Below, one piece after another: positions 18,113 through 49,941 of a stretch of 64,000 nucleotides of DNA; within the stretch, counting starts at the first letter, position 1, and the number at the start of each line of letters is the position of its first letter. The DNA comes from Bryobacteraceae bacterium (lineage in GTDB: Bacteria > Acidobacteriota > Terriglobia > Bryobacterales > Bryobacteraceae): positions 2,542,001 through 2,606,000 of the forward strand of contig BPGE01000001.1 in the NCBI GenBank assembly GCA_026002875.1. Reading direction: 5' to 3'. A program made the position numbers and the translations under genes. The notes under the pieces are model-generated. The model was not told where the DNA came from, did no database searches, and worked only from the letters and a program-made list of their open reading frames with translations.

Positions 18113-18131
18113 CACTCTTGTCCAAATTAGC
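18113..18131 (+). repeat. Left terminal inverted repeat of the IS4-family element
   Basis: CACTCTTGTCCAAATTAGC directly follows the left target-duplication copy CATCCAGAT (18104-18112). Confidence 0.92.
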
Positions 18132-18213
18132 TTTTGACCAGTGAGGCGGCGGCTCTGGTAGGTTGAGTGAGGTTTCGCCAGAAGCCCATTCAGCCGGTCA
18201 GGAGGCCACCGCC

Positions 18214-19380
18214 ATGAATCGAGTATGCAGTATTTTCTCCCAGGTCTTGAAGTTCGTTCCGCGCCTGGAATTCGAGGCGGCCGTCCGCCAGCATCGCGCC
18301 GAGCGCCACGCCCGCGGATTCCGGTGCTGGACGCAGCTTGTCGCCATGCTGTTTTGCCACCTGGGACGCGCCCAGTCGCTGCGTGAAATCGTGGGTGGCC
18401 TGGCGTCTTGCGAAGGCAAGCTGCAGCATCTCGGCGTGGCCTCGGCGCCGAAGCGCTCGACGCTGGCCTATGCCAATGAGCACCGGCCGTGGGAGTTGTT
18501 TCAATCGGTCTTCTACGCGCTCTATCAGCGTTGCGCCTCGGAAGCAGCTCAGCGTTGCAAGCGCAAATTTCGCTTCAAGCATAAGCTGATGAGCCTGGAC
18601 GCAACGCTGATTCCACTCTGCCTGAGCATGTTCGACTGGGCTCAGTTCGGGCGCAGCAAGGGCGCGGTGAAGTTGCATCTGGTGCTGGACCACGACGGCT
18701 ATCTGCCGGGCTTCGCCGTCATCACCGAGGGCAAGACGTCGGACGTGGACGTCGCCCGCCGGCAGCGCTTCGAACCCGGCACGATGCTGGTGTTCGACCG
18801 CGGCTACCAGGACTATGACTGGTGGCTGGATCTGTCGCGCCACAAGGTGTGGTTCGTGACGCGGCTGAAAGACGTGGCCAGCTACGGCATCGTCGAACAG
18901 CGCGAGGCCGACAGGCGGAAGTCGATCCTGCGCGACGAGGTGATCCTGCTGAGCCGGACGCAGGAGGCTGGGCCGGCGGCGTTGCTGCGGCGGATTGAAG
19001 TGGAGGGCGCAGAGGGCGAGACGGTGGTGCTGGTGACGAATCATCTGAAGTTGTCGGCGGCGACGGTCGCGGCGGTCTACCGGGAGCGCTGGCAGATCGA
19101 GTTGTTCTTCAAGGCGCTGAAGCAGTCGTTGCGGATCAAGACGTTTGTGGGCACCAGCGCCAATGCGGTGCAGATCCAGATTTGGACAGCACTGATCGCG
19201 ATGCTGCTGGTGAAGTACATGCAACTGCGCAGCAGCTTCAACTGGAGCCTGTCGAACCTGGTGGCGCTGCTGAGACAACAACTGTTTGTCTACCGCGACT
19301 TGATGGCCTGGCTGGAGGCGCCGTTCGAGCCGCCGCCCCAACTGGACGCGGCCTCGCAACTGATGCTCGAGTTCGGATGA
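18214..19380 (+). CDS. IS4-family transposase (DUF4372 N-terminal domain)
   Basis: The 388-residue DDE transposase catalyses cut-and-paste movement of the surrounding element. The N-terminal 70 residues (SIFSQVLKFVPRLEFE, LREIVGGLASC) are the DUF4372 domain found in one IS4 branch. The catalytic residues are D129 (SLDATLIPL), D195 (VFDRGYQDYDW) and E296, the last within YRERWQIELFFKALK, which matches the IS4 signature Y-2-R-3-E-6-K exactly. The ATG at 18214 has AGGAGG eight bases upstream; an in-frame TTG at 18163 lacks an SD. The frame is unbroken, so the element is probably active. Confidence 0.96.
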   Translation: MNRVCSIFSQVLKFVPRLEFEAAVRQHRAERHARGFRCWTQLVAMLFCHLGRAQSLREIVGGLASCEGKLQHLGVASAPKRSTLAYANEHRPWELFQSVFYALYQRCASEAAQRCKRKFRFKHKLMSLDATLIPLCLSMFDWAQFGRSKGAVKLHLVLDHDGYLPGFAVITEGKTSDVDVARRQRFEPGTMLVFDRGYQDYDWWLDLSRHKVWFVTRLKDVASYGIVEQREADRRKSILRDEVILLSRTQEAGPAALLRRIEVEGAEGETVVLVTNHLKLSAATVAAVYRERWQIELFFKALKQSLRIKTFVGTSANAVQIQIWTALIAMLLVKYMQLRSSFNWSLSNLVALLRQQLFVYRDLMAWLEAPFEPPPQLDAASQLMLEFG

Positions 19381-19482
19381 GTTTGGACAGCAGGCGCCAA
19401 CGGATGGGGGGTCTGGTTCGGTGGAAAGAAGAGATAGCAGAGATAAACCCAGTCCAATCAGTCAGACCAAACCGGTTCGGTG

Positions 19483-19501
19483 GCTAATTTGGACAGCAGT
19501 G
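19483..19501 (-). repeat. Right terminal inverted repeat of the IS4-family element
   Basis: GCTAATTTGGACAGCAGTG on the + strand is the inverted partner of the left end, with two mismatches. It is followed by the second target-duplication copy CATCCAGAT (19502-19510). Confidence 0.92.
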
Positions 19502-20175
19502 CATCCAGATAATCGCGGAAGATGCAGCGGTTATGCACGCTCTTGCCGTAATACACCTTCAACCTTCCGTGCTCATCGAGGTCCTTTGCGGGCGGAATTC
19601 CATACAGCAGGACACGCGCCACCGTTCCGATGAACCAGTCCGGATGGCACGGACACCCGGGGATGTTGATCACAGGGACGTTCACCGAGAGCATCTTCAG
19701 CACGTCTCCGACCCCCTTGGCCCCCGTGGGATTCGGCGCCGCCGACGGGATTCCCCCGTAGGCGGCGCAGGTGCCGACGGCGAGAATCGCCATCGCCCCC
19801 GGCGCGAGCCGCCGCATCCATTCCAGCATCGTGACCGGCTTGCCGTCTTCCTCCCCCAGCGTGCCGTCGATGCCGCCATCCCGGGTCGGAATCGCGCCCT
19901 CGACGATGAAGACGTACTTGCCTTTGTGCTTCGCCGCCGTCTCCATCGCGGCATCCGTTGACAGATGCCCTGCCGCCGCCATCAGCGTCGAATGGTAATT
20001 CAAGAACAACTGGTGGCCAGGCAGGATCTGGTCGAGGATGACGTTCTTGATGCTGGGATGAATGGTGTTGATCACCGACACCGAGCACCCGCTGCAGGCC
20101 GAGTGCTGCATCCAGATCAGCGGATACTCTTTGACGGCGTCGGCGAGCGCCGCGCCCACGCGCGGCAGAATCGCC

Positions 20176-44494: not shown

Positions 44495-44782
44495 TCAGGA
44501 CCGGATCGAGAATCCACTTGATTGTAACAGAGGCGCCTCCTGCTCCTCGACATGTCTCACGTCGCTGAAGCGCGGTCCCTGTCTGAGCCGCATCGAGAAT
44601 TCATCGAGCTGCTCCGGCGTGCCGCAGGCGTAGACCTCGACGCTGCCGTCGTCGCAGTTGCGCACCCAGCCGCTCAAGCCGATCTGCGAAGCCCAATTCT
44701 GCGCCCACCAGCGGTAGCCGACGCCCTGCACCCGCCCCTTGACGATGAACCGCCGCGCCTGTTTGCTGCGCCTGACTGCCAT
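44495..44782 (-). CDS. Acylphosphatase
   Basis: The 95-residue protein has the full acylphosphatase signature: [17 protein letters not shown] (catalytic Arg in GYRWW) and [21 protein letters not shown] (catalytic Asn in VRN). It hydrolyses carboxyl-phosphate bonds such as acetyl phosphate. It lies 14 nt upstream of apt and is the last recognisable gene before the CRISPR array. Confidence 0.94.
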
Positions 44783-44931: not shown

Positions 44932-47357
44932 GATTTTGCCCCCTTTTGAACGGGGCTCAGGTCTGACAGATGCCGGCCGCGGCCGACCTCGTTATGTTCG
45001 AGTCTCAATCCCCTTTTGAACGGGGCTCAGGTCTGACGAGAAGACCGACTGGTCCACCATTCCATAACCGTCTCAATCCCCTTTTGAACGGGGCTCAGGT
45101 CTGACCGGATCTACAAGTATGGGGTCATCCCCGTTGTGTCTCAATCCCCTTTTGAACGGGGCTCAGGTCTGACCAATGGCTGTCCTTGGATACAACCAAA
45201 ACCCTACGTCTCAATCCCCTTTTGAACGGGGCTCAGGTCTGACCAATGGCTGTCCTTGGATACAACCAAAACCCTACGTCTCAATCCCCTTTTGAACGGG
45301 GCTCAGGTCTGACGAGCAGGTGTCGATCAGCGAGGCGCTGGATGTCTCAATCCCCTTTTGAACGGGGCTCAGGTCTGACTTATGGGAGACGTAGCCCGAT
45401 ACCGGGTGTCCTGTCTCAATCCCCTTTTGAACGGGGCTCAGGTCTGACTCTCTGAGCTTCAAAAAGCTCAAGAAAGAGGGTCTCAATCCCCTTTTGAACG
45501 GGGCTCAGGTCTGACACTGAAATATGTAACTTCCAACACAGGTTTATGTCTCAATCCCCTTTTGAACGGGGCTCAGGTCTGACTGAGCGGTCGGTGGATC
45601 GACTGGCAGACAGCTGTCTCAATCCCCTTTTGAACGGGGCTCAGGTCTGACTGATGGAGTGGATCAAACAGCAAAAACCCGCTGGGTCTCAATCCCCTTT
45701 TGAACGGGGCTCAGGTCTGACCCTGGCGCATGGGGATTTTACAAAGTGCAATGTCTCAATCCCCTTTTGAACGGGGCTCAGGTCTGACGGATGACTTGTA
45801 AAGAAATGCTGTTGGAGATCGTCTCAATCCCCTTTTGAACGGGGCTCAGGTCTGACGACTTAAATTTGAAACCATTGCGGAATGGCTGTCTCAATCCCCT
45901 TTTGAACGGGGCTCAGGTCTGACGTCGACAGGCCCTTGAACATGGTTTACGATCTGTCTCAATCCCCTTTTGAACGGGGCTCAGGTCTGACACAAACATC
46001 CGGCAATAGGGCAATCGGGGTGAATGTCTCAATCCCCTTTTGAACGGGGCTCAGGTCTGACACAGTGTGATTCATGCACCCGTCCGATGCTTTTGTCTCA
46101 ATCCCCTTTTGAACGGGGCTCAGGTCTGACACTCAGGATCGCTAAGAGAGATTTGAAGCCTGGTCTCAATCCCCTTTTGAACGGGGCTCAGGTCTGACGA
46201 GGGGGGAGGCGTATCCGATCAGTGACGATCCGTCTCAATCCCCTTTTGAACGGGGCTCAGGTCTGACCCTCCAGCACTTCGATGCCGGCCGGCGCGCATT
46301 GTCTCAATCCCCTTTTGAACGGGGCTCAGGTCTGACCAAGAAGGATGGGTGCTGAAATACCCTACTTGTCTCAATCCCCTTTTGAACGGGGCTCAGGTCT
46401 GACTAAGCCTGAGCGGGGCAATTTCGGGCGGAGAGTCTCAATCCCCTTTTGAACGGGGCTCAGGTCTGACAGGCGGACGCCGGAAGCCGGAAGCGGACGC
46501 CGGGTCTCAATCCCCTTTTGAACGGGGCTCAGGTCTGACTCAGACTTCCACTAGTGGCATTGGAAGGAAATGTCTCAATCCCCTTTTGAACGGGGCTCAG
46601 GTCTGACAAGTTGCGTGCGGCGATAGTATAGCACAGATCGTCTCAATCCCCTTTTGAACGGGGCTCAGGTCTGACGTACAGTTGCTTCAAGTTGTTGAAA
46701 AGAAAGGTCTCAATCCCCTTTTGAACGGGGCTCAGGTCTGACCCAGATTCTGGAAGCGCAGGCGAAGCGAACAAGTCTCAATCCCCTTTTGAACGGGGCT
46801 CAGGTCTGACTTTTTTCCGAGGCCCAGGTGGCCGCGTTGAAGGTCTCAATCCCCTTTTGAACGGGGCTCAGGTCTGACAACCCGCACTTCAATAGCACCT
46901 ATGCCGACCTGTCTCAATCCCCTTTTGAACGGGGCTCAGGTCTGACGGTGTCATAAACGCCGACGCGAGCATCAGCAGTCTCAATCCCCTTTTGAACGGG
47001 GCTCAGGTCTGACCCGTTGTTCTGCTTGTTCTATTTCTTCGGAGTCGTCTCAATCCCCTTTTGAACGGGGCTCAGGTCTGACGACTTCCGTCGCGTCTTC
47101 TTCAAGAAGTTGAAGTCTCAATCCCCTTTTGAACGGGGCTCAGGTCTGACCAAGGCATGTGGTATCTCGGCGTAACGGGCTTGTCTCAATCCCCTTTTGA
47201 ACGGGGCTCAGGTCTGACGGCTGGAGCGCGATGACCAAATCATCGCGGAGATGTCTCAATCCCCTTTTGAACGGGGCTCAGGTCTGACTGAGCGATCCGC
47301 GAATCAAGCAACAGATCGCATGTCTCAATCCCCTTTTGAACGGGGCTCAGGTCTGAC
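44932..47357 (-). CRISPR. CRISPR array, 36 repeats (one degenerate), no cas genes nearby
   Basis: I count 35 full 36-bp repeats, beginning at 45002, 45070, 45138 and so on to 47322, and appearing identical. Each starts GTCTCAATCCCCTTTTGA and ends ACGGGGCTCAGGTCTGAC. One degenerate copy lies at 44932-44967, with 35 spacers of 30-34 bp between. The degenerate copy keeps only the last 26 bases, so this is the old, leader-distal end. Read on the minus strand the repeat ends in GGGGATTGAGAC, the usual ATTGA(A/G)AC form of a crRNA 5' tag, so transcription is leftwards from the leader at 47358. Inside the repeat CCCC and GGGG can pair across an 8-nt loop. Spacers look less GC-rich than the chromosome. 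Spacers 45174-45207 and 45244-45277 are identical. Confidence 0.98.
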
Positions 47358-47520
47358 CGACCCCCCTGGTTAAGCTCCCACCGCACAACGAGTTGCAGAG
47401 GCCGTTGACAATTTTTTCGGAAAAAACATAGTTGGGTGAATTTGTTTCGACCTCCCATCCACGATTGCGGCTGTCCCGCATGCCCTCAACTTTGCCATAG
47501 TCGTGGCGTGATGTCAAGTG
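47358..47520 (-). promoter_or_regulatory. Probable CRISPR leader
   Basis: The sequence right of the last perfect repeat is AT-rich compared with the chromosome, with the runs ATTTTTTCGG and AAAAAACATAG at about 47410-47430. It contains no ORF. Its place opposite the degenerate terminal repeat marks it as the leader, holding the array promoter and acquisition site. Limits are approximate. Confidence 0.7.
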
Positions 47521-47575
47521 TTTTCATTCACATAGGGGTTCGATTGGGGCGGTCTGCCCGGGGAAGTGCGGCGGC

Positions 47576-47691
47576 GGACTGGCCGCGCCTGCGGCGCGAG
47601 GGGGGGTGTCGGAGGGTTGGGGAGGTTGTGTTTGAACCGCTTGGTCGCAGCCCTTCGGGCTGCTCCCGCGCGGCTCTGTTTGGGCGGGGCG
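47576..47691. repeat. Hairpin module, copy 1 of 3
   Basis: About 115 bp shared with 48448-48567 and 59517-59635: GGCCGCGCC, a G-rich stretch, GTCGGAGGGTTGGGG, then CCGCTTGGTCGCAG and the hairpin GCAGCCC-TTC-GGGCTGC, then CCGCGCGGCTC. It separates the CRISPR leader from the 62-bp repeat array. It is not a gene. Confidence 0.8.
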
Positions 47692-47751
47692 GGTTTCGGT
47701 TCGTTTCGCAAAAATGCGGTTTTGGGTTTGGGTGGGGTTGCGGGGCAAGGG

Positions 47752-48440
47752 TTTGCGGGGCGGGAGGGGGCACGGGTGGGATGCAGCCATCGCGCAAGCG
47801 CGATGGGAAACCCGTTGGGGGGCGCAGGGGACACGGTTGGGATGCAGCCATCGCGCAAGCGCGATGGGAAACCCGTTGGGGGGCGGGAGGGGGCACGGGT
47901 GGGATGCAGCCATCGCGCAGGCGCGATGGGAAACCCGTTGGGGGGCGGGAGGGGGCACGGGTGGGATGCAGCCATCGCGCAAGCGCGATGGGAAACCCGT
48001 TGGGGGGCGGGAGGGGACACGGTTGGGATGCAGCCATCGCGCAGGCGCGATGGGAAACCCGTTGGGGGGCGGGAGGGGGCACGGGTGGGATGCAGCCATC
48101 GCGCAAGCGCGATGGGAAACCCGTTGGGGGGCGGGAGGGGGCACGGGTGGGATGCAGCCATCGCGCAAGCGCGATGGAAAACCCGTTGGGGGGCGCAGGA
48201 GACACGGTTGGGATGCAGCCATCGCGCAAGCGCGATGGGAAACCCGTTTGCGGGGCGCAGGGGACACGGGTGGGATGCAGCCATCGCGCAGGCGCGATGG
48301 GAAACCCGTTTGCGGGGCGGGAGGGGGCACAGTTGGGATGCAGCCGCCGCGCAAGCGCGATGGGAAACCCGTTGGGGGGCGGGAGGGGACACGGTTGGGA
48401 TGCAGCCATCGCGCAAGCGCGATGGGAAACCCGTTGGGGA
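47752..48440 (+). repeat. Tandem array of eleven ~62-bp palindromic repeats
   Basis: Copies of GATGCAGCC start at 47780, 47841, 47903, 47965, 48027, 48089, 48151, 48212, 48274, 48337 and 48399, spaced 61-63 bp. Each is followed by a hairpin CCATCGCGC-AA-GCGCGATGG (some with AG in the loop), then GAAACCCGTTGGGG and a G-rich linker ending CACGGGT or CACGGTT. The period is not a multiple of three, so the open frames across it do not encode a repeat protein. No stop-free frame here has coding character. Confidence 0.93.
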
Positions 48441-48447
48441 GGGGGGC

Positions 48448-48567
48448 GGACTGGTCGCGCCCTGCGCGCGCGAGGGGGGTTGTCGAAGGGTTGGGGCGGT
48501 GGTGTTATTAACCGCTTGGTCGCAGCCCTTCGGGCTGCTCCCGCGCGGCTCCGTTGGGGCGGCGGGG
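48448..48567. repeat. Hairpin module, copy 2 of 3, at the hemG 3' end
   Basis: It has the same organisation as 47576-47691, with GGTCGCAGCCC-TTC-GGGCTGC and CCGCGCGGCTCCG. It ends at the hemG stop codon, so on the minus strand the hairpin follows hemG by about 30 nt and could serve as its transcription end. Confidence 0.8.
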
Positions 48568-49941
48568 TCAGCGGGGGGCGGCGAGGGCGCGGGCGGCGGC
48601 GCGGCCGGTGCGGATGCAGTCTGGGACGCCGATGCCGTCGTAGGCGTTGCCGGCGAGCTGGAGACCGGGGTAGCGCGCGGCCATTTCGCGGATGGCGGCG
48701 ATGCGGCGGGCGTGGCCGACTTCATACTGGGCCATGGCGCGGCGCCATCGGCGGAGGCGGATGAAGCGGGGCTCGGCGTCCCAACCGAGGAGCTGCTTGA
48801 GTTCGGCGCGGACGGCGCGGATCAGATCCCGGTCGCTGTGTTCGAGCACGGATTCGCCGCCCGAGCCGCCGAGGAAGCAGCGCAGGACGACGTGCGTGTC
48901 CGGCACGCGATAGGGGAACTTGGCGCCGACGAAGGTGCAGGCGACGAGGGTGCGCCGCTCGCGGGCGGGGACGAGGAAGCCGAAGCCGGGCGGGATGGGG
49001 CCGCAGTCTTCGCGGCGGTAGCCGAGGGCGAGGGTGATGGACGAGGTATAGGGGATGGCTTCGAGTTCCGAGGCGAGGCGCTGATCGACGGCGCGCAGGA
49101 GAGCGCCCGCCTGCCATGCCTGGCAGGCGAGGATCAGGTTGTCCGCCTCGATGGTATCGCCGCCGAGGCGGACGAGCCATTGCGAGCCCGGGCGTTCGAC
49201 GCGCTCCGCACGCGCCTGCACGATGCGGCAGTGCGGGCGGATGCGGCGTTCGAGCTCGGCGGTGAGCTGGGCGAGGCCGTTTCTGAGGGTGCGGAAGAGG
49301 GGGCCGGATTCAGCGCCGCGGGCGCGGGCGGCGCGGCGGGCGGCGAGGACGCCGCGGGTGAGGCTGCCGTAGCGGCGCTCGAGTTCGACGAAGCGGGCGA
49401 GGACGCTGTCGACGCTGAGGCGGTCGGCGCTGCCGCCGTAGACGCCGGCGAGGAGGGGTTCGGCGAGATAGTCGACGGCCTCGCGGCCGTAGTGGTCTTC
49501 GATGAAGGCGGCGACGCTGCGGTCGGGCTGCGGGGGGCCGGGGCGGCGGAAGATCTCGAGGCCCATGCGGAGCTTCGTGCCCCAGCCGAGCACGGGGGTG
49601 GCGGCCATGGGCAGGACTTTGGTGGGCACCATCATGAGCAGGCCGTCGGGCATGGGGACGAGGCGGCCGTTGCGGACGAGGTAAGTCACGCGCTGCTGGT
49701 CGAGAGAGCCGATCAGGTCGGCGCCGAGGCCGAGTTCGCGGGCGAGCTCCTCGCCGGCGGGCTTGGCGGAGAGGAAGCTGTCCGGGCCGCCCTCGATGAC
49801 GCAGCCGTCGACGACCTCTGTCTGGATGACGCCGCCAAGGGAGGGCTGCTCTTCAATGAGGACGGTTTCGCGGCCGGCGAGGGAGAGTTCCCAGGCGGCG
49901 GCAAGGCCGGTGATGCCGCCGCCGATGATCGCGGTGCGCAC
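48568..49941 (-). CDS. hemG: Protoporphyrinogen oxidase (HemY type)
   Basis: The 457-residue FAD enzyme oxidises protoporphyrinogen IX in haem synthesis. It has the dinucleotide fold TAIIGGGITGLAAAWELSLAG at the N-terminus, GGVIQTEVVDGCVIEGGPDSFL (PPOX-type), LLAGVYGGSADRLSV and a C-terminal GNAYDGIGVPDCIRTGRAAA FAD motif. It starts at a GTG 1 nt after the hemE stop, so it belongs to the hemE operon. Its codons are C-ending, in contrast to the G-ending minus-strand genes left of the CRISPR array. Confidence 0.93.
   Translation of the reverse strand: MRTAIIGGGITGLAAAWELSLAGRETVLIEEQPSLGGVIQTEVVDGCVIEGGPDSFLSAKPAGEELARELGLGADLIGSLDQQRVTYLVRNGRLVPMPDGLLMMVPTKVLPMAATPVLGWGTKLRMGLEIFRRPGPPQPDRSVAAFIEDHYGREAVDYLAEPLLAGVYGGSADRLSVDSVLARFVELERRYGSLTRGVLAARRAARARGAESGPLFRTLRNGLAQLTAELERRIRPHCRIVQARAERVERPGSQWLVRLGGDTIEADNLILACQAWQAGALLRAVDQRLASELEAIPYTSSITLALGYRREDCGPIPPGFGFLVPARERRTLVACTFVGAKFPYRVPDTHVVLRCFLGGSGGESVLEHSDRDLIRAVRAELKQLLGWDAEPRFIRLRRWRRAMAQYEVGHARRIAAIREMAARYPGLQLAGNAYDGIGVPDCIRTGRAAARALAAPR

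Follow-up and report, generated by a model that had tools for sequence, protein, structure and literature searches.

How could a large CRISPR array be used by its host when no cas gene lies near it? The question is raised by an array in the window analysed here, the window being the whole stretch of 64,000 nucleotides examined, which corresponds to bases 2542001–2606000 of a single-contig genome of 4863736 bases that is rated 100% complete. Arrays located away from cas genes were reportedly described by Shmakov et al. in 2020, and the original prediction for this locus held that the array must either be served in trans or be stranded. The seeming orphan of this 64-kb window finds its explanation once the whole chromosome is searched.

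The array occupies window positions 44932–47357 on the minus strand, and therefore bases 2586932–2589357 of the genome; it is confirmed as a real CRISPR array, and its boundaries had been predicted exactly. It contains 36 repeats and 35 spacers, one repeat more than the 35 near-identical copies originally counted. Thirty-five of the 36 units are identical 36-mers (GTCTCAATCCCCTTTTGAACGGGGCTCAGGTCTGAC, or GTCAGACCTGAGCCCCGTTCAAAAGGGGATTGAGAC on the crRNA strand) and the remaining one is a degenerate terminal copy at the leader-distal end (44932–44967, minus strand), whose six mismatches all fall within its first eight positions, leaving six of the eight tag-giving positions changed and the other 28 positions intact. 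The 35 spacers are 30–34 nt long and 34 of them are distinct, with two successive identical 34-nt spacers and the repeat between them located at 45174–45277 (45174–45207 and 45244–45277, minus strand). Spacer GC content is 52.3%, compared with 66.3% for the window, as had been noticed from the outset. The locus thus has the features by which CRISPR arrays are recognised: regular identical repeats, unique spacers of similar length, a leader at one end and a degenerate repeat at the other.

A chance origin of the repeat is excluded, because the genome holds 104 matches to it (with up to 3 mismatches) and none to a reversed-pattern control. The repeat folds barely better than its shuffled versions (z −1.17, with 20 of 200 shuffles equally good), and the single Rfam match to the array, CRISPR-DR8, lies under its gathering score. 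The exact repeat has no match in the genome_contigs database, where a 23-nt core of it matches the metagenome-assembled genome ‘Bryobacteraceae bacterium isolate SKYG119’ and one from Blastopirellula.

The claim that neither flank encodes a Cas protein held in three separate searches. Models for Cas1, RAMP proteins, Cas6 and Csm1, applied to the whole genome, gave 5, 7, 2 and 5 matches respectively and none in the window, the nearest cas match being csm5 at genome 2128352–2128936, about 458 kb to the left of the array. Used as tblastn queries, translations of 23 cas genes from the same genome had no match within the window, nor in the 16 kb past either of its ends. PADLOC named no Cas protein among the 20 of 48 window open reading frames submitted to it; two of the 20 gave weak matches, one to PDC-S12, E1-E2, E2 and HEAT-ARM, the other to ShosT. 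Housekeeping genes adjoin the array on both sides. To the left lie an acylphosphatase gene (44498–44782, minus strand) and, further out, genes for a phosphoribosyltransferase-domain protein, a GHMP kinase and a ribose-phosphate pyrophosphokinase; to the right lies an open frame that we take to be hemG-like (48568–49941, minus strand), followed by hemE-, ApbE- and IF-2-family genes.

A search of the whole genome for cas loci with the same repeat, a check suggested in the original prediction, revealed an intact type III-A operon at a distance of about 460 kb. The 104 repeat matches form three arrays: that of the window, one beside the type III-A operon (genome 2114275–2116220, 29 repeats including a degenerate end) and a second remote one, referred to here as the third array (genome 3951171–3953944, 41 repeats, on the strand opposite to the other two). 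The distal repeat is degenerate in the cas-adjacent array (4 mismatches) and not in the third array. Over the three arrays the repeats are 36 nt and the spacers 30–37 nt long, and no spacer is common to any two of them. As with the window array, no cas match lies beside the third array (tblastn, 3936001–3951000 and 3955001–3973000). The operon begins about 1.1 kb past the last repeat of the cas-adjacent array, on its leader side, with cas2 starting at about 2117288, and encodes cas2, cas1, a diverged cas1, a second cas2, two CARF proteins, cas6 and csm1–csm5. The complete III-A set is therefore present (cas10/csm1, csm2–5, cas6, cas1 and cas2). Its Csm1 has a GGDD motif and an HD motif; one CARF protein is NE0113/Csx1-like (all but its N-terminal part was scanned) and the other is a TIGR02710 CARF-HEPN protein.

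The three arrays are also joined by their leaders. The leader that the original prediction had described at the window array is real, and the 203 nt of it used for comparison (47358–47560, minus strand) are present three times in the genome, each copy abutting an array of the same repeat; the sequence occurs nowhere else in the genome and has no match in four of four congeners. It differs from the leader of the cas-adjacent array at 1 position in 203 and from that of the third array at 6. Since the leader lies at the right end of the window array (47358 onward) and the degenerate repeat at the left, the crRNA strand is the minus strand. The 5′ tag of a crRNA is formed by the last 8 nt of the repeat, and the tag originally proposed, ATTGAGAC, indeed lies on the minus strand, as the leader side predicts. 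The same polarity is supported by the third array, in which seven leader-proximal repeats (genome 3951171–3951618) have one common substitution, which on the crRNA strand alters the final base of both repeat and tag, new repeats being copied from the leader-proximal one; this pattern suggests that spacers were added there after the leader-end repeat had mutated. No such variant marks recent additions within the window array. One sigma-70-like site was found in the leader region, on the strand opposite to that on which the array is read, such matches being weak evidence.

Other CRISPR-Cas loci in the chromosome were considered as partners. A type I-E system at 1571736–1583563, array included (genes at 1571.7–1580.3 kb: cas3, cse1, cse2, cas7, cas5, cas1 and cas2), was ruled out, since an array of its own accompanies it, made up of 53 copies of a repeat different from that of the window array. 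A Cmr (III-B) cluster lies at 263.5–271.7 kb, where cmr2, cmr4 and cmr6 score above the NCBIfam cut-offs, cmr3 falls just under its cut-off, a cmr1-like protein was matched weakly by PADLOC and no cmr5 was identified. A second Csm cluster at about 1691–1696.4 kb contains a Csm3, one further RAMP protein and a Csm1-like protein that scores under the cut-off, the other names being assigned by position. Its Cas10 (about 1695.0–1696.6 kb) is a short, 513-aa open frame with GGDE in place of the GGDD of the main-operon Csm1. No array was found around the Cmr cluster (255001–284000) or the second Csm cluster (1680001–1710000), and neither has a match to the Cas1 model. Three tandem-repeat tracts near these clusters were rejected as CRISPR, their units being near-identical throughout. 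Both clusters may draw on the same pool of arrays as the III-A operon. Elsewhere, a second Cas6 gene (at about 976 kb) lies close to one for a truncated Cas1 of 184 aa (at about 978.6 kb); the 31 kb examined around them hold no array, and the pair is perhaps the remnant of another CRISPR locus.

The window array is very probably a remote type III array that is served in trans by the distant III-A operon, because its repeat and leader recur in this chromosome beside that intact operon, which includes adaptation genes as well as cas6. Transcription from the leader would proceed along the minus strand, and Cas6 from the distant operon would cleave every repeat 8 nt before its 3′ end, producing crRNAs with the 5′ tag ATTGAGAC. 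These would be taken up by the Csm complex of the III-A operon, and perhaps also by the Cmr and second Csm complexes, which are predicted to recognise invader transcripts and to trigger cyclic-oligoadenylate signalling by Cas10 to the CARF proteins of the operon. Spacers presumably are, or were, added at the common leader by the Cas1–Cas2 of the operon. Service in trans is in keeping with the 35 unchanged repeats of the window array and with a complete congener, described below, in which a related array locus is likewise remote from the conserved operon; against it stand the lack of a convincing protospacer, the direction of the sigma-70-like site, which points away from the array, and the weak fold of the repeat.

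Matching spacers to phages and plasmids had been proposed as a further check, and it brought no convincing target: searched as a whole, the array matched 2 phage and 5 plasmid records, at E values of 0.2 and 0.7 respectively. The 22-nt cores of eight leader-proximal spacers (of 34 distinct ones) were compared with viral contigs, where seven had no match and one matched a single contig over 23 contiguous bases, the similarity breaking down beyond them. Among 237 genomes of the family, its own included, 15 match the array at E ≤ 0.01. In the own genome, a draft relative (G001) and the complete congener (G002) it is the repeat that matches; the matches of G206 (49, on a single contig), G118 (10) and G057 (8) probably stem from other repeats; and the other nine have one or two weak matches each. 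No convincing spacer target emerged from these 237 genomes, two candidates per genome having been scored among the matches listed, and one spacer that resembles an open frame of G165 with 5 mismatches in 32 is at best a lead. Missing spacer targets are common for hosts whose viruses are unsampled.

Published type III systems bear on how far service in trans might extend. In Thermus thermophilus HB27 six arrays are common to the III-A and III-B systems, and in strain HB27c every type III array is described as transcribed except one without a leader, with spacer acquisition limited to the two that lie close either to type III interference genes or to the type III cas1 (PMC7515739). By analogy with this confinement of acquisition to cas-near arrays, the window array may be transcribed and yet have stopped growing. 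It is thus possible, and put forward tentatively as a special case of service in trans, that the array is an archive, transcribed and used for interference from a distance and no longer acquiring spacers. In favour of this, besides the restriction of adaptation in HB27c despite the transcription of its leader-bearing arrays (PMC7515739), the window array lacks the repeat variant that marks recent additions in the third array. However, its leader differs from that of the cas-adjacent array by one base in 203, and the third array, which is equally remote from the operon, shows in its seven variant repeats the pattern expected of growth at the leader end.

That the array is instead a stranded relic, left without a functional partner, is improbable. 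No Cas1, RAMP, Cas6 or Csm1 match lies within 457 kb of it and its spacers have no convincing targets, as a relic would allow; yet the chromosome carries both an intact cognate operon and the leader, and all but one of the 36 repeats are unchanged. Of the two possibilities originally raised, service in trans by the III-A operon is therefore retained and stranding is not.

As a probable instance of such service, the window array is ordinary in kind, since shared, remote type III arrays have been published and this is an already-known type of case. The resemblance to T. thermophilus HB27 lies in the several identical-repeat arrays, some of them away from cas genes, that type III systems share there and may share here, and in the presence of truncated cas1 genes in the genome (PMC7515739). 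The present case differs in having three arrays with 36-nt repeats and 30–37-nt spacers, compared with new spacers of 35–42 bp in the HB27 account (PMC7515739), and in that the host is probably an acidobacterium (Acidobacteriota) and all three arrays have near-identical leaders. In Pyrococcus furiosus, crRNAs from any of the identical-repeat arrays are bound by three effector complexes (cited in PMC7515739), these being I-A, I-G and III-B; here the two Csm clusters and the Cmr cluster would be the candidates. In a survey of arrays, 25.0% are accompanied by a further array whose consensus repeat is identical, and the window array resembles the remote arrays of multi-array genomes, with no essential difference apparent (PMC12814883). 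Orphan arrays exist, and some seemingly incomplete systems are functional (PMC8616872). No account of the window array was found in the titles and abstract openings of literature that pairs Bryobacteraceae with CRISPR. What the locus adds is probably an acidobacterial example of type III arrays that are both remote and shared.

The repeat is rare among relatives, occurring (with up to 3 mismatches) in three of 101 genomes, namely its own, G001 (6 copies) and G002 (287 copies), the other genomes compared being 100 relatives including these two. In the complete congener G002, 288 copies (with up to 8 mismatches) lie at 3395161–3416445, split into 4 and 284 by a 1.5-kb gap, with no match to the Cas proteins of the own genome in the 51 kb around them. 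Of these 288 repeats 286 are identical; many of the spacers are similar without being identical, and some are duplicated. The orthologous operon of G002 lies at about 3725.0–3737.0 kb, about 309 kb from the array locus, and no array is present in the 3712–3746 kb region around it. In draft G001 repeats and operon fall on separate contigs, and the 26 kb surrounding the operon contain no array; in draft G003 part of the operon occupies a 6.7-kb contig and the genome lacks the repeat; and G004 has no repeat and no cas1 among the matches listed.

Comparison of the flanks shows that neither remote array holds a conserved position. By hemE, acylphosphatase and DNA comparison, the sequences that flank the window array are far apart in G002, at 286 kb and 1003 kb, and belong to different contigs in each of the drafts (G001, G003 and G004). 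On the right side, similarity ends at window 48577–48587 in G001, G002 and G004; the G003 contig ends just past hemG and is uninformative. At the site of the third array, 334 bases (G003) and 656 bases (G004) separate the flanking segments, compared with about 3.7 kb in the own genome, the left flanking segment, with 76% identity, being just 259 bp long in the own genome; G001 and G002 matched on the right flank only. These dispersed flanks could be taken to mean that the window array truly belongs beside the operon and was misplaced in assembly, but this is highly improbable, because the genome is a single contig rated 100% complete and the three arrays have no spacers in common, and, in addition, the leader copies of the individual arrays differ slightly from one another and the flanks of the window array are unlike those of the cas-adjacent one.

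Beside the leader of the window array lies a dispersed G+C-rich repeat sequence (47561–48560, no strand assigned), which includes tandem units of about 61 bp at 47757–48440. Related sequence adjoins the leaders of the other two arrays and occurs at many further sites, with 131 matches in the own genome when the third-array region is used as query (arrays included), and is also matched in congener G004. It is conceivable that the arrays were placed by recombination at these dispersed repeats; as the three arrays have no common spacers, any duplication must be old, or have involved leader and repeat only. A more far-reaching and rather doubtful reading is that the leader–array unit in this genus is a relocatable module uncoupled from the operon: its sites are not conserved, one being a synteny breakpoint and one array-less in two relatives, each array of the own genome is joined to the G+C-rich repeat, which may be a substrate for copying or rearrangement, and a single Cas6 and a single adaptation module would feed three type III effector complexes. 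The uncoupling of array and operon is the one feature that deserves a closer look, and the genus (own genome, G001 and G002) is suited to asking how arrays leave operons yet keep a homogeneous repeat and leader.

Two further observations concern the III-A operon itself. Its second cas1–cas2 pair (genome 2118670–2119763) encodes a Cas1 of 249 aa that has a Pfam match only over residues 10–80 and a best PADLOC match to ‘Cas1, diverged variant, second in the loci’; the pair is conserved in G001, G002 and G003. Just past csm5 lies one copy (genome 2129757–2131150) of a 1394-bp element, probably an insertion sequence, of which a 99.9% identical copy is found at window 18113–19506, each copy containing a 405-aa open frame.
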